Shown here: piece by piece, positions 30,001-55,850 of the stretch
How the letters are laid out: each line of letters starts with the position of its first letter
Position numbering within the stretch: position 1 is the stretch's first letter
Assembly: GCA_037389465.1 (NCBI GenBank)
Contig: JAZARR010000175.1
Location: forward strand, 2,294,001 to 2,358,000
Direction of reading: 5' to 3'
From: Baylisascaris procyonis
Taxonomy: Eukaryota > Nematoda > Chromadorea > Rhabditida > Ascarididae
DNA: 64,000 bases
The notes under the pieces: model-generated
The model's input: only the letters and a program-made list of their open reading frames with translations
Told to the model about the DNA's origin: nothing
The model's database searches: none
Position numbers and translations under genes: made by a program

Positions 30001-33000
30001 GTAGTTTAGTTGGCGGTTCACTGACAAGAATGACTTAGATTTCAACAAAATCACAATATAAAAATGATAATAACATAGCCACAACGTTCGACCGCCAACT
30101 CCCCCCCCCAGTCACACCGTTCGACCGCCACCGCCCCCCCCCGTCACAACTTTCGACCGCCACCCCTCTACCCCTTCCTCCCTCCCTCTCCCCATGACCT
30201 CAACCTTAAGCTAGACAATTATTGCAAATCACAATGAACAAACATTCGAACGAAGAATGGTAGTATCGGCGGTGAGTGAAGGATCGGCGACCGCAACAAG
30301 CATACGCTGTCTTTCCACATCCACACTTCGTATGTTCACTTGCACTGTGCATCCCAATCTTAACATTAATTTTGCACCATTTTGCAACGATAATAAGCTT
30401 TGAATATAACAACTCCATATGATATCATCCATCCTATAGCATAGAGAGAGTGATTTCTTTAAAATATTGTAAGAATTAATTCAGAGTACAAAAAGAAAAC
30501 GTCAAATAAAACATTAAAATGCAAAATTTTCAAGAATTTTAACTGCCTAAGAAAGGCGATATATGAGTTGGATTCTTCAATGTGAGCTCTAATTGTAAAA
30601 CGATTTCGACCATCTATAAATGCGTTATCATAAATGATTGATATGTGATATGCTAATTTTAATACTTATGTGATAACATTTATATCCGTTATCGTCATAG
30701 AAAATAATTATCGCAATCACTATTACTTCAAAAATTAATTGTCTTGCAAATTTAAATTTGAGATTCGAAAATTTTAATTTGAAAACAAGAAAGATGCAGC
30801 TTGAATTTATTAATTCGTTGTTCACTTACTGAAAAATAAGTGATATTCTATTCACTCAGAATAAACACTACTAATACAGTAAACATATGCTAGCAAAACA
30901 AAAAAAAAAGCTTTATAGTAAACGATATAAACTGAAAATATCTTTCATGAAATCGAAAAATTATTGAATTTTATTTACTAATCTTTCAAAGAGTAAAATA
31001 CCTATGCATTATCGTTATGAGAGCGTTTGCCTTATGTAGCATTTTCAAATGTGTTCCTATGAATATAAGTTATTTTGATTAAAATTATTCATTTCGTTTT
31101 GTGCGGTTGTGACGAAGAGACATTAAATAACTAAACCATTAACGACTAGAATATCAATTCCTTAAAAAAAGACGATTTCTTTCGAAAAAAATAAAATCTA
31201 TTACTTTAGAACAGATAATTTTCGACGATAACACCTCTCCCCTTGAGGATATTTGCTGCTTTCTCCTTCACTAATTCTTTCTTTAATAAAAATTAAAATC
31301 CCACCTTCAAAGGACGTTTATCGTTAAATCTATCACATGGGGAAGGGGGGGGGATTAAACCTAAAAGCATACAAGAAAAAGAAACAAACTTGACTTCTCC
31401 CAATCGCGCTGCTTCTTTCGGAAACATAAATGCACGCACACCGCCATAAAACCCAATTAATAATCCCCCATTCTCATGCTTCGCACGCACATATCCAAGT
31501 GTCACTGCACCGATATTCTCGGCAGAGTAGTCCTTTATGAGTTTATATTTGGTATTCAGTAATGATGGCTTCGATGTCAGTATCAGACGATGTTTCAACG
31601 CATTTGCTTCTAGTATTCGACAATCCAACATTTGTCCTGAACAGCAAATTCTGAGTGAAGTAAACAACGAGGCGATTCTTGGAGTAGCTTCAGAAAGCCA
31701 ATTACTTAAGATAAAGCCATCGCAAAGATCAACTCAATCCAACGATCTTCACTATGGCCAAAAGTAATGGCGCAAATGGCCTATTGCCTTATAACTGTTA
31801 CAGCATGAATATGTGTTGCTTATATAGCAACACTCCTCACTTGAACGATGCAGGCACTCTATATTACAATTATATTACAATTAGTGAACACTATTAGGCA
31901 TCTAAATAGGTGTTGTTCTATTATGAAGGTAAGTGAGTACGGCATCGTTATTGAAAGGAGTTAAAATCTGTTAATGGGAACTAAGAAATCAAAAAGCAAA
32001 GAGATTGGATTATATAATTACAGCAAGTGAAAGATGTAACTCACTACTTATGGGCAATTTAGATGAAACACATGAAGCGAGGTTGAAATATCATGAGAGA
32101 TGTGAAAGCACCGAGCAGAAACTTCAGATGCTTCGGATCACATCCTTTGGCATTTTAGCGCATGCTTGTTGCATCTTGTGGGTGGTGGGGAGAGTGGGAA
32201 AGAGGAGGAAGAGGGAGGAAGCAAATAGAGGACAGTAATGTAAAATAATAAATCATACCTTTGGAATAGTGTTTTTCGATGCGAGTGAATTGTCTGTCGG
32301 CAATATGTGCCAATGGGATGAATGCTGAGATCCGGTCGTAGACTTTCATACCTAATCCATTCGCTTTGATAGATTCAATCTTTGCGCGTATTTTCTCACC
32401 CGGTACTGCATCCTATAACTTGATATATAACGTTCAAAATCAAATCCCTCCCTAACCATTTCTCAGAAAATCTCTATCAAACAACAATGCGTCTTTATTA
32501 AGATTTTCGCATAAGATTTTATCCAGACCCGTAAATGGGAAATTTGATCGGTTATTTTAGAGGTAAGTGTCAATTAAGGTAAATAAGGTGTCACACGGAT
32601 AAAAGCAGGAATACACTTGTGCGCTTCGCCATAACATCCATCGAATGTTTTCTATTCAAATCTGAATAATAAACAAAAGATGAAAGAAAACTGCATATTA
32701 TAGTTTATATAAATGTACTTCTAAGAGCCACAAATATTTCGTAAAACATGAAATGAGATGGAAATTTGCTTCTTTCTTTCGTTCATTGCCTAAAAGAAAT
32801 TCCTTTCTTCTCTTCTTCTACCTTTATCAGCCATTTCTTTAATACCGCTTATATGATTATCTACCTTTATCAGCCATTTCCGCCGAATTGTTTATATGAC
32901 TCACTAGCAAGATCGAAAGCAGTAATACTCAGTTTTAAAAAAATGTGGTGAAAACGCCCCAATAAATAGGCAAAAAAAGCTGCTCACCACTAAAGAAACC

Positions 33001-46091: not shown

Positions 46092-49000
46092 CTACGCTCC
46101 AAATTCAGGGCATTTTTGTTTTGTTTCCGGGAAAAATTTATCCATACGTTTTCGAAAAAGTTCAATAGCATTAGTGAATTGTGAACGAGAGCGTTTTTGA
46201 AGTTTTTTTGTTTCAGATGTATCTTTAATTGTTTTAATACCTCTATGCACCATAAACATATCGTTGACCAATACAAATGTGTAATTCTGTCGACACATTT
46301 CCCAACGCTGAAAAATAAAGGCTTTTATCAATTTAGAGTCTGTGTGCACGGACTCTTTTCTTTTTTTTTTCATTATTTTGCAAGGAAATGATTCAATAGC
46401 TTGCAATTTCTTTTTTTTCAACCTCTTTTTTCTACTATCGATTTTCTAGTATCATGAAAGTTAGCAGAAAAAAATTTGCATATTATCCAAATATTTTAAT
46501 GATCCCAATTTTACAGATTTTCTAATTCGATAACAATCAATGTTGAGATAATATATTTTCAATAATTGATGAAACTAACCCATAAAAATTGTTAAATATT
46601 GAAATTTTTTTTCCTGAAATATGAAATTCGCCGAGATTTTTTAATATCAAATTCAAAGAAAAAATTTATTGGTGTTATTTCGTGTGGTCAAAAGAATTTT
46701 TTTTTCGAGGATTCTGGATATCTCGATCACAAATTTAGATTAGATATGCAAAATTTTATGCAAAATTTATTTAAGTTATGTAAAGAAAAAAGCAGTTTGA
46801 TTCTTTAAAAAACTTGTTCTATTTTTTTCTACGTTTTTTCTTCTTTTTTTTTTTAATGGAAGAATTCGAAAAAAAAAACTCACAAGGACAGTATTATCGC
46901 GAAGTGAAAATGGAAAATTTTCATCATGAAATGGAATGGTATTCAATGAAACGAATTGAGGTTCCCAATCTCTCCTCGAGAATCTGCAATTTTTTTTTTT
47001 TTTGTGAATGCATAATTATGTTTTTTTTTAAATTACTTTAACCGTAGGACAGCTATATTAAATATAGTTATATGCAATACATGTAAACATAACATATTCA
47101 TCTTGTAAGATATGCGTAATGTGCATCATCTAATAAGGTGGATTTCACTAGGCGGAAATAATTTATGCAATTTGCTGATTATATGTCGAATCGAAAAATC
47201 ATTAATAGGCTAAAAGACACATATCAAATTCAGGCTTATTACAGAGTCGTTCAATTTTTTATCTTACAAAGTACATTGTTGCTATAGAATTTTGAAAATG
47301 CATAATTTCTCTACAGCCAAAAATCGGACATAATAAAAAGCTTATTTTAACTCTTAGTTTCAAGTTTTTTTTCCCGAGAAATTTCGTTTTTAAGTTTCGA
47401 TCGATTTTCTTGGTGTTGATGAATATTGAAATCTTAACGCTCTAGTAGTCCAGTGGAAAGTTACACGATTGGCAAGTGTTGATAATGTTTTACCTCGGAA
47501 TGGAAAATGAATAGCCGATTTAGCCCGGATTTTTATGGTGATGGAAGAGATGGCGAGGGGGAAGGGTTTGAGGGGATAAGGGGGCGAAAGAAGGGATGGA
47601 GAATAGAGAAAATGAAGCGTATAGCCAATCTTCAATAGTCTGCGTTCTATGTGATCATCATAAAGATAACCTTATCGATTATCGAAATCAAATAAAAAAA
47701 TATTTTATTAATATAAGTATAAATATAGATAAACTTACGGTAATGTTGTACTGAGAGAGGCTTTTGAATTATCGACTGGATGATTAAACCAATCAATTAA
47801 ATGTGGAATTTTATGAGCATTATGAGTGAATTTCGCATGAAATTCCACTACCATACCATCGAAGAATAATTTACGTAAAGTGGATTTATCACGTGGTAAC
47901 CTCAAAAATATTTATTTAGATAACATCGAAAAATAAATATTTTTCGATGATCAAATTTATAAACAATTCGACATTTTCCCATCCACTTATCCCAACTCAC
48001 CCTCCAGCTATGTCTGCTGACTTTCAATGGGCTATTTTTGTTTATGAATGACTTATCAATCTTCAGTTGGATGCTCTAAGGTATGCATTGTCATCACGGA
48101 TTTCAGAAGATCTGGAAGTAGCGCAATAGATTTGAGGTAGAATGAGTGGACATTTGCTTATTGAGGTATAGTGAGTGAACATTTGCTTACTGAGGTATAG
48201 TGAGTGGACATTTACTTACTCAGGTCTACTGAGTGGGCATTTACTTACTCAGGTCTAGTGAGTGGACATTTACTTACTCAGGTCTGGTGAGTGGACATTT
48301 ACTTACTCAAGCCTAACGAGTGGACATTCCCTTATTGAAATGTAGTGGGTGGACATTTGTTCGTGCGAAATATAGTATGAAGCGAAAGTATTTGAAAGTC
48401 TCTGAGTAAAGTCGAAATCTTTATCAAAAAGTGTCACTATGGTTCAAATATGGTAGCAGCATTGAATCATACTCAAGTTGTTGGAACATTTGAATTAGCA
48501 CCCATAGCAAAGGTGTTCCCATTCCAGACTCAAAATTAGCGAAGGATTTCCGACTTCTTTATTCATGGAATTTGGTGGACATATATGCACGATACCAAAG
48601 ATATTGTAATATAAGAAAAAAACTGAATATTCCCTCCTCAAAGCTATCACTAATTTTATAAATAACCTCAAAATTTAGATGTTAAAATTATTTTATAGGT
48701 GATATTGTATGCAAATTTGCATACATTCACCTTATAAGAAAAATTTGCATTAAAAAATTTGCATAGAATTACCTTTGAACGGTATCGTTCACTTCAAATA
48801 TTCGAAAGACGAGTGCAGTTTTAGGATTTTTGATAAGTTCATCATTAGCTAATTTTCGCATTCGACTTTCGAAGCCTTTCGAAAAGATAAACTCATAATC
48901 ACCAAGTAATATATATTTCGAACGTACCAGCTGCAAAAAAAAAAATTACCTTTAGAAATTAGCATTTGAATGGCGCACTAATTTATGCTAATTTATGTTA

Positions 49001-50858: not shown

Positions 50859-53491
50859 AGTAGAGCCATAATTGCTAACGCAGTGGGTTTATCGACATTT
50901 CTTTTAGGTATCGGAACAACTGGTTGATTACCTAATGACTTGAGCAAGTGAAGAAGAGAGATGGAGTCATATAAACTGGCAGTCATATAAGCTTTATAAT
51001 AAATTGTGCTATAGGTGGAAATTATAACCGCCAAATTTTATAATTCTATTTGCACTGTTTCCCAAGTTAAAGCTATTGGACAGATAAGCAAATATATGCA
51101 ACAATTAGGCCGATATATGCATATAATAGGCAAATGTACATACATATGCGCAGATATGACATTGCTATAGTGAACCTTTTCAAAACGAAACTTCTTCTTT
51201 TAATTGTTATCAAGTTCGCATCACTTTACAACCATACCTATAAAATTGAAAGTGAAACAGATGCGCATTGCAAGTTAGTTTTTTTATAAAATTACTATGT
51301 GTGTTTACTCACTAACGCACATTGTGTAACATCATGAAACATGAGTAATAACACTGTTGTTTCGCAGACACATGATCGATATATGTAATAGTATAACAGT
51401 GTTTTGGTTATGACCATATGATACGTCGAATAGAGATGGAATAATAATTTATGCTGACTAGTGGAAGTTCTGCCTGAAGGATGGTTTAATTACCCAAGTT
51501 TGAGCAATTAATGCTGACTAGTGAAAGTTCTGCCTGAAGGATGGTTTAATTACCCGAGTTTGAGCAATTTATGCTGACTACTCAAAGTTCTGCCTGAAGG
51601 ATGGATTAATTACCCAATTTTGTGGTTGATGTGCAATGAATATGGCACAAAGAGCCGAAACGTCAGCATAAATTATTATTCCATCTCTACTTGACGCACT
51701 ACATGGTCATAATCAAAAAATTATTATACAATTACATTATGAAACAACTCTAAAATTGTTGGAAAAAAGGTAGCATAACAGGTGAATCAACTGACCTTAT
51801 ATTGAATTTTATGAACGTTTGGAAGTATACCAACTGATGGAATAACAATCGATAATGTTACTGGTCCTTCCCATGCATCCACCTGAATGATCACTTATCC
51901 TTCGAAATTAATATCCATTTATTAGCATTTACATAAAATTCTTTCAATAAATATTAGTAAATTAGCAAATATTAAAATGTAAATGAGTATTTTTTTTTTC
52001 AAAGGTGATATTCTTAATGGATTATAACTTCGCAGTTGAAAATGCTTGCTTTAGCCCTATCGACTATGATTTTAAGTTTGAGTGCGAAGTAATTTTTTCA
52101 TTGTTTTATGCCTTTTTTTCAGCATGTCTCTCATTTGTCATTAAGTCTATTTTCGTTTAGAAATAGCTTTTGTTAAAGTAAAATGTTGGTGTGATTTATT
52201 TAAAATTGTTCCGTTGAAAGTAATATTAGATGCTTGAAACTGTGCTGTATGATCGAAGCAATGGACATTTGCGCTTCGATAATTTGCATCACAGAATGGC
52301 AATGGTTTCACGTTAAATAGGAAGGTGAAATACCTTTCCGAATATATTGTTGGAATCCAAAAAGTGCATTATTAAGAAATTCTTTCATAGGTGGTTTTAT
52401 TTGATGATAACGATAACGTTTAAAATTCAATGCGGCAAAATTGTATGGTTCTAATCATTTAGTTGCTCACCTGTTCAATAATTCTATGATCGAGAAGATC
52501 GGCACTTATGTGTACAACAAGTGTTATTCTTTCGAATATTTCCATACTATTTTCTAATAAACTCTTTGTCATATACGGTAAAATACAGTAATCCTTATAA
52601 GTAAGAAATCTAAAAATCATCTTTATTATACTGTACAAACTTTGAAGAGTAATTTTATAGTACAATTAAATATGTTATGATATGAGGCTATTTACTATTA
52701 TCGAATACTATACTGTCACGTATAACATCTGAATTTATCGCTTTTGATTTAATTTCTATCTAATTAGATCTCATAGTCAAATTGTTGTAATTATGCGTGA
52801 TATGCATGCATATTATGTAATGCAATGTTTTGATGCACGTTAGAATTTTTAAATTATAACGACGATATATCTTTGCCTATGTGTTGTCTGTCGGTCTGTC
52901 TGTCTGTCTGTCTATTGGGCAACTTCATTTCGAGAATCGCTGACGTGAAGTTAAGAAATTTAATATGCATAATGTAAGAGATATGATCATCTCCTATACA
53001 TTGATAAAATTTCAAATATGTTTAAAAATATTTGAAAAATGAAAAATATTTCCATATATTCTAATAATTTTTAAAAGATTTATTTGAGTTTCAATCGGAT
53101 CAATCGAATTTTGATGAAATTATTTCAACTTTTTTTTTATTATTATTGATTGATTAGATGAGCGAATTTGAACATATATATCATTTCTATTTCTGTGATA
53201 ATCTTTTGCAGTTTCTTCAGCACTATACCGTTCCTTATCGTTTATAACCCCATCTTGAACGGATAGAATCTTAAATACGCATTTTTATTATAAATATATT
53301 TTTTTTTTAAAAAGTAATCCAAATAAATATTTTCTTAAAAATTTTAAATTTCAAAAGAGTAAACAATATTACTGTAAATTATCGTCGATAGCAGAATTGC
53401 AGAATGCCGGCATATCAAGACTACATATTGTGAGTATTGTAGAGATTGTTAGGAGAATAGTTACAATCGCCGTTAATACCGCTTTGTGCAT
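46092..53491 (-). CDS. GT49 glycosyltransferase (B4GAT1/LARGE-like), type II membrane protein
   Basis: Family 49 glycosyltransferase. Human B4GAT1 and the second domain of LARGE add beta-1,4- or beta-1,3-glucuronic acid to O-mannose glycans in the Golgi; the substrate of nematode members is unknown. Exons in transcript order: 53491-53373, 53269-53229, 52609-52471, 51882-51796, 49800-49645, 48930-48773, 47900-47739, 46983-46884, 46307-46092. About 390 aa (human B4GAT1 415). Residues about 4-24 form a signal anchor (VLTAIVTILLTISTILTI). Then come QDGVINDKERFLTYKDYC, the strand ITLVVHISADLLDHR, WEGPVTLSIVIPSVG, YPVNVARNVARM, the nucleotide-sugar/metal site LLGDYEFIFSKGFE, RDWEPQFV, and the C-terminal VHRGIKT. 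Junctions from exon 2 to exon 9 are in phase. The exon 1 to exon 2 join is off by one base: either a microexon or start was missed, there is an assembly error, or exon 2 is skipped (exon 1 to exon 3 is in phase). DYE stands where DxD is usual. Confidence 0.9.
48134..48365. repeat. 29-bp minisatellite, 8 copies
   Basis: Exactly eight 29-bp units of the type GAGGTATAGTGAGTGGACAT then TTACTTACT, diverging at both ends. It lies in the GT49 intron between exons 6 and 7. Confidence 0.95.
50780..50856. repeat. (AT)38 microsatellite
   Basis: Uninterrupted AT run in the GT49 intron between exons 4 and 5, 0.6 kb from the SL1 repeat. Confidence 0.98.
50922..50947 (+). repeat. Possible diverged SL1-like relic
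   Basis: GGTTGATTACCTAATGACTTGAGCAA resembles SL1 plus the CAA that follows it in the tandem units, allowing a small indel: GGTT, ATTACC, AA and TTGAGCAA are shared. It lies 0.5 kb from the SL1 array in the same GT49 intron. Chance similarity in AT-rich DNA is possible. Confidence 0.3.
51402..51718. mobile_element. Foldback (MITE-like) repeat carrying tandem SL1 copies
   Basis: Inverted repeats of 57 bp, left arm 51402-51458 and right arm 51662-51718, match at all but about seven positions, and all the differences are transitions. Between them lie three tandem 60-bp units (51448-51624) and a 37-bp tail containing CCGAAACGTCAGC. The whole sits in the intron between GT49 exons 4 and 5 (49801-51795). 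No open frame or target-site duplication was recognised, so the mobile nature is inferred from the architecture. Confidence 0.65.
51448..51624 (+). repeat. Three 60-bp tandem units each ending in spliced leader SL1
   Basis: The period is exactly 60 bp. Each unit is about 38 nt (ATGCTGAC, then GTTCTGCCTGAAGGAT) followed by a 22-nt SL1. Copy 1 (51483-51504) reads GGTTTAATTACCC then AAGTTTGAG, a perfect match to canonical nematode SL1. Copy 2 (51543-51564) has one change (CCCG for CCCA). Copy 3 (51603-51624) has three. Each copy is followed by CAATT or GTTGA instead of a GT splice donor, and no Sm-site-bearing SL RNA body follows, so these are not functional SL RNA genes. Confidence 0.9.
52883..52963 (+). 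repeat. TCTG-microsatellite-linked dispersed repeat, copy B
   Basis: GTCTGTC run, then ACTTCATTTCGAGAATCGCT and AAGAAATTTA, about 70% like copy A. Located in the GT49 intron between exons 2 and 3. Confidence 0.6.
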
Positions 53492-55575: not shown

Positions 55576-55850
55576 GCCTATAAGGCATATTGAGGGCAAG
55601 ATAGAAAATGAGCGATAATGAAATAAGTTAGATCAGATGATTTGCTGGCCTATAAGGCATATTGAGGGCAAGATAGAAAATGAGCGATATTGAAATAAGT
55701 TAGATCAGATGATTTGCTGGCCTATAAGGCATATTGAGGGCAAGATAGAAAATGAGCGATAATGAAATAAGTTAGATCAGATGATTGCTGTAAGGGTAAA
55801 ATGGGCGATAATGAAACAAGTTAGGTCAAATAATTTGTTGTAAGGGTATG
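55576..55850. repeat. 72-bp tandem repeat, three full units plus partials
   Basis: Units begin GCCTATAAGGCATATTGAGG at 55576, 55648 and 55720. The first two are almost identical, the third lacks one T. A shortened fourth unit lacks the first third. None of the frames is open through the array. Lies between two exons of the unidentified gene. Confidence 0.95.

Follow-up and report, generated by a model that had tools for sequence, protein, structure and literature searches.

Penelope-like elements (PLEs) canonically combine a reverse transcriptase with a GIY-YIG endonuclease, and in the available portions of the report on the Anolis element PAc, the element's protein cuts and extends both target strands and reverse transcription starts at two adjacent internal sites (PMC11167929). 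For the head-to-head palindromes of rotifer Penelope elements, the available text of the original study favours self-priming on an antisense template and does not exclude a sense template (PMC3846280). Integrated spliced leaders have been described beside other retroelements. According to the accessible part of the Brugia malayi study, 120 of 316 SL1 places lie outside SL RNA genes, 60 of these 120 fall within 1 kb of PAO elements, and the authors propose that expressed elements received leaders, which then entered the genome along with them (Foster et al. 2020, PMC7181701). A leader found at a head-to-head junction bears on how PLEs integrate, as it can be joined only to sense RNA.

Results

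An SL1 array within an insertion with inverted arms

We analyzed a 64,000-nt stretch of Baylisascaris procyonis DNA, referred to here as the window. A sequence-only reading had reported three SL1 matches spaced 60 bp apart, and these were confirmed: no further match within 3 mismatches occurred anywhere else in the window, and 100 dinucleotide shuffles yielded 0. Tandem Repeats Finder placed the array at 51446-51622, with a period of 60, 3.0 copies and 92% matches. The array lies centrally within an insertion of 397 bp (51342-51738), whose arms are inverted and which has a target duplication of 8 bp; the parts are listed below.

51334..51341, no strand: left target-site duplication, ATGAAACA, with its second copy at 51739-51746
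51342..51458, minus strand: left arm, reversed, reaching the long (tail) outer end and lacking the first 37 nt at its inner end
51459..51482, plus strand: filler of 24 nt, from left arm to SL1
51446..51625, plus strand: three 60-bp units, in each of which 13 nt from the end of the left arm and the 24-nt filler precede SL1 and one further nt
51483..51504, plus strand: SL1 copy 1, exact
51543..51564, plus strand: SL1 copy 2, one change
51603..51624, plus strand: SL1 copy 3, three changes, the arm-joined copy; putative former splice junction at 51624/51625, as in other SL1 copies
51625..51738, plus strand: right arm, with the short outer end
51739..51746, no strand: right target-site duplication, ATGAAACA

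When the two arms were compared by BLAST with a 159-nt arm query, query positions 38-158 matched 51458-51338 on the left at 93.4%, and positions 2-113 matched 51626-51737 on the right at 91.1%. The insertion is old and has no ORF of its own, its content being arms, filler and SL1 only.

A genome search allowing 3 mismatches located the filler together with the start of SL1 at 3 places, and since all 3 are in the window, the tandem triplication is private to this copy. The 60-bp unit had been put forward as a repeat family to be searched for across the genome, and it proved to be confined to the window. SL1 copy 3 adjoins the right arm and therefore holds the original junction, and from this arm boundary copies 1 and 2 appear to be the added ones. 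The sequence-only reading had also taken the decay from copy 1 to copy 3 to give the array a direction. We rejected any such age order, because the most changed copy is the one at the original junction; the differences between units (3/60 between units 1 and 2, 8/60 between 2 and 3, and 7/60 between 1 and 3) fit ordinary decay.

The bases following SL1 copies 1, 2 and 3 are CAATT, CAATT and GTTGATG. As the earlier reading had observed, none of the copies leads into a GT donor and SL RNA body, and the window gave zero Rfam matches at gathering score. In principle, a repeat could have captured part of an SL RNA gene, or the match could be a coincidence, and the SL1 of the array is indeed identical to that of the SL RNA genes in this genome. 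However, those genes continue with GTAATTCC, while the PLE copies continue with the arm, SL1 being bounded exactly at the exon end, and the chance expectation is 0; we regard this explanation as barely credible.

Three other tandem arrays are present in the window: 29 bp x 7.4 at 48143-48358 (Tandem Repeats Finder), 72 bp x 3.0 with an overlapping 49-bp form at 55576-55848, and a C-rich array of 33 bp x 2.6 at 30080-30164.

SL1 elsewhere in the genome

SL1 had been expected to be confined to SL RNA genes and the ends of mRNAs, an expectation that does not hold here. The genome carries 981 exact copies, many of them in retroelements. SL RNA sequence (GTAATTCC) follows in 263, exact SL1 with family sequence accounts for 133 places of a family A and 32 of a family B, and 22 copies run into the exact start of the PLE arm; the remaining 531 lie outside those classes, with a family C and other arrays among the candidates. 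An exact SL1 match in a nematode genome may thus often be retroelement DNA.

Within families A (L002, L003, L005, L006), B (L007, L008) and C (L041, L042, L045, L054), SL1 is inside long terminal repeats. The bases preceding it do not end in AG, in contrast to the PLE acceptor described below. Tested members of families A and B have the BEL/Pao domains DUF1759 and DUF5641, with rve below cutoff. As for the SL RNA genes, those at L039 (C89:531500-533600) form a 5S rRNA-linked tandem array of ~1.1 kb, a second run on contig C89 begins at 2.62 Mb with a period of ~0.87 kb, and among the matches listed (100 of 263) all places where SL1 continues with GTAATTCC are on C89.

Two classes of arm that meet at one base

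We searched the genome (272.8 Mb, 293 contigs) with 51390-51730 and obtained at least 102 matches, 40 of 300 candidates being scored. Apart from the self-match, these fell on the arms and on the stretch joining SL1 to the arm; the two exceptions were gapped, matched at 76-77%, and spanned the left arm and filler up to SL1. Arms with SL1 are therefore the dispersed family, and the triple repeat is not part of it. A pattern for the arm only was found at 165 places within 3 mismatches.

Copies that retain PLE sequence have a 3' splice acceptor, GAATTT(T)CAG/CTTGG, in front of the arm. Nematode 3' splice sites usually read TTTTCAG, and trans-splicing places SL1 on such sites. The fetched loci held 80 distinct arm instances: SL1 was present in 36 and upstream sequence ending in TTTCAG in 21, the arm was truncated in 12, and 11 belonged to none of these groups. 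The arm base at which SL1 ends is also the one at which the acceptor ends: when offsets from -4 to +5 were tried, the best was 0 in 36/36 SL1 instances, and TTTCAG was present in 21/21 acceptor instances from the same 80. Stricter removal of near-copies left 56 nearly complete arms (33 SL1, 18 acceptor, 5 others), and the subset from the arm-only search, which is blind to SL1, comprised 30 arms (14 SL1, 12 acceptor, 4 others). Genome-wide, within 3 mismatches, there were 58 SL1-arm places and 33 acceptor-arm places (31 TTTTCAG and 2 TTTGCAG), where the first pattern favours an older subfamily and the second a younger one. SL1 thus occupies the acceptor position of unspliced sister copies, as a retrocopy of trans-spliced RNA should.

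A template switch, in which the reverse transcriptase left the PLE RNA and continued on the SL1 end of another mRNA, SL1 never having been spliced to PLE RNA, would account for the filler and for the microhomology at inner junctions of some copies, but such a jump would not land on the acceptor base in every SL1 instance, and we consider it very unlikely. The sequence-only reading is partly supported. Sister copies with a splice acceptor exactly at the SL1 position support its core, in which a trans-spliced transcript returned to DNA by reverse copying and was amplified locally; the SL gene fragment, the separate repeat family and the direction of the gradient found no support.

The parent element

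The ORF upstream of the acceptor carries RVT_1 in L098 (536 aa, E 1.7e-11) and L099 (431 aa, E 6e-12), above the Pfam cutoff. A GIY-YIG match was found in a following frame of L099 (E 0.00077; 20.2 bits, below the Pfam cutoff of 22.6) and in L089 (E 0.0075), and the Pfam search reported none for the 536-aa ORF of L098. The endonuclease part has at least 144 genome matches. A protein search returned 88 relatives whose precomputed domains are PF00078, PF26215 and often PF01541, many having RT and GIY-YIG, the named ones mainly from Haemonchus and Ancylostoma. The arm family derives from a Penelope-like element with a reverse transcriptase and a candidate GIY-YIG endonuclease, and the window copy is a non-autonomous derivative of it. 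L099 contains an inverted insertion of ~2.56 kb with a 13-bp target duplication. No PLE copy with a complete 5' end was seen, which, like the GIY-YIG score below cutoff, counts against the PLE-retrocopy reading.

An endonuclease piece gave zero matches in a plasmid collection, as did two ORFs in NCBIfam. Hammerhead ribozymes have been reported in the terminal segment of other PLEs, although to our knowledge they are not required of every PLE. One was suspected here from GGCTCAAAGAGCCGAAACGTC, but L099 2540-2800 had no Rfam match up to E 10. At relaxed E, Rfam gave 19 microRNA matches in five family loci, all below gathering score; 18 coincided with the long palindromes and the other (mir-1277 in L010) with a TA repeat adjoining the element, and we took them as chance.

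Integration marks are common to both classes

Flanks sharing at least 8 bp were found in 23/34 head-to-head pairs, compared with 4.1% of mismatched pairs, and flanks sharing at least 10 bp in 19/34, compared with 0.4%. By class, at least 8 bp was shared in 11/20 rows with SL1 and 12/14 without. Three SL1 rows (L014, L020, L035) duplicate others, and without them the figures are 10/17 for SL1 rows and 22/31 overall. Two observations count against a PLE retrocopy: a target duplication of at least 8 bp is missing from 9/31 deduplicated pairs, and among nine SL1 loci with a single arm, drawn from the search with 51390-51730, only L027 and L028 share a flank of at least 8 bp.

After duplicate rows had been removed by hand, the outer ends were unequal in 30/31 pairs, one falling between arm positions 90 and 125 and its partner at position 135 or higher, with L013 as the sole exception. 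SL1 was present on both arms in 3 of the 31 pairs, on one in 15 and on neither in 13. In 11/15 pairs with one SL1, the second arm is missing its inner end and abuts the first arm's SL1, while the second arm is complete in 4/15 (L011, L025, L034, L063). Target duplications, head-to-head inverted arms and the combination of one long and one short outer end therefore occur in both classes, and the family shows the features expected of PLE insertions, namely terminal segments that are inverted, a tail confined to one of these and variable target duplications.

Inverted arms and target duplications are also what a DNA transposon or MITE with terminal inverted repeats would leave. Against this, the duplications vary in length (8-14 bp), the point at which inner ends are truncated differs between copies, some copies have a single arm, the outer ends are unequal in nearly all pairs, and arms of this family border reverse-transcriptase ORFs, which makes such an origin highly improbable.

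Single or repeated capture of SL1

It would also be conceivable that trans-splicing captured SL1 once and that an SL1-headed mini-element then multiplied from its genomic copies, with SL1 as an inherited 5' end or even a promoter, much as in a SINE. A single clade of all SL1 arms was not rejected (p 0.07), which counts against the PLE-retrocopy reading, and L018, L031 and L067 have a common SL1 variant that ends in GCG (not GAG) and is followed by GTTG. This variant may be an inherited change or may come from a variant SL RNA, and it leaves room for some inheritance. On the other side, in L017 SL1 is joined to an arm of the young PLE subfamily, within the starred acceptor clade (99/92), and the tree needs 9 label changes, at least 2 of which are forced by starred branches. 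SL1 decay (positions 4-22) was 29/570 sites, or 5.1%, and arm decay 197/2665, or 7.4%, in two sets that were not fetched by exact SL1; three loci that were so fetched are biased to intact SL1 and were excluded from these sums. Because SL1 decays nearly as fast as the arms, there is no sign of its upkeep for a function, and the idea that selection kept it is unsupported. We hold a single capture to be improbable.

At L016/L062, two successive SL1-like sequences lie on one arm, which may reflect a template jump at the RNA 5' end.

Discussion

The SL1 array is very probably part of a non-autonomous PLE retrocopy, made by PLE enzymes from a PLE transcript that had been trans-spliced to SL1. Because the SL1 and acceptor classes share both the junction base and the integration marks, PLE RNA was most likely trans-spliced to SL1 and afterwards retrotransposed. 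As judged from the sequence, the acceptor would have been used in PLE RNA, with SL1 joined at TTTCAG/CTTGG just 5' of the PLE terminal segment. Splicing there would have removed everything upstream of the acceptor, reading frame included, to give an RNA beginning SL1-CTTGGTGTGC or SL1-CTTGGTTGC. The PLE reverse transcriptase/endonuclease would then have copied the SL1-headed RNA into a new site. The product would be two head-to-head cDNAs within one target duplication, as in ORF-bearing PLE copies, one ending at the long tail site and the other at the short site. We infer that the two cDNAs, one primed on each target strand, would run toward the SL1-marked 5' end of the RNA. In the window copy, the left cDNA would have been truncated and joined through the 24 nt of filler, and the 60-bp segment (left-arm end, filler and SL1) would have been duplicated twice, either during insertion or later.

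If this is true, trans-splicing can reduce an autonomous element to a mobile copy that has no ORF. We would go further only with as much doubt as confidence: SL1 may be a natural end-mark of PLE integration, in which case the templates of PLEs would be spliced sense RNAs, with a cDNA primed from each target strand and the two meeting at RNA 5' ends, and with no antisense self-priming, and trans-splicing may keep spawning a non-autonomous PLE lineage.

Integrated leaders associated with retroelements are already known from the available accounts of Brugia Pao and Schistosoma elements. In Brugia malayi, as here, genome-integrated SL1 accompanies retrotransposons, but the PAO element there is an LTR (BEL/Pao) element and not a PLE, and the accessible portion of that report makes no mention of a sister class with an acceptor at the base in question (Foster et al. 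2020, PMC7181701). In the portion of the Schistosoma mansoni work on transposable elements available to us, a genomic leader exon is likewise read as reverse-transcribed trans-spliced RNA; it concerns six of 32 genes, and its authors do not exclude chimeric assembly (PMC5832876). Dinoflagellate retrogenes, as far as the available text goes, also carry a genomic leader that is interpreted as reverse-transcribed trans-spliced RNA, although these are host genes, unlike the PLE here (PMC12014239). The apparently new part is SL1-headed PLE copies with acceptor-bearing sisters, for which our searches of open-licence PubMed Central listed no precedent.

The nearest described systems are endonuclease-bearing PLEs. 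In the available descriptions, Adineta vaga Penelope (PMC3846280) and Anolis PAc (PMC11167929) join a reverse transcriptase with GIY-YIG, as the PLE here may do, and rotifer Penelope resembles it in having terminal segments that are inverted and of which one bears a tail, as well as duplications (8-10 bp in the rotifer) and head-to-head palindromes (PMC3846280). The available text on the rotifer and PAc elements does not mention a spliced leader, nor does that of PMC3846280 mention trans-splicing, whereas SL1 is present here. Since only sense RNA is trans-spliced, SL1 would mark the RNA 5' end, and the SL1-headed head-to-head copies point to a sense template in PLE integration, in contrast to the antisense template of the rotifer model as given in the available text (PMC3846280).
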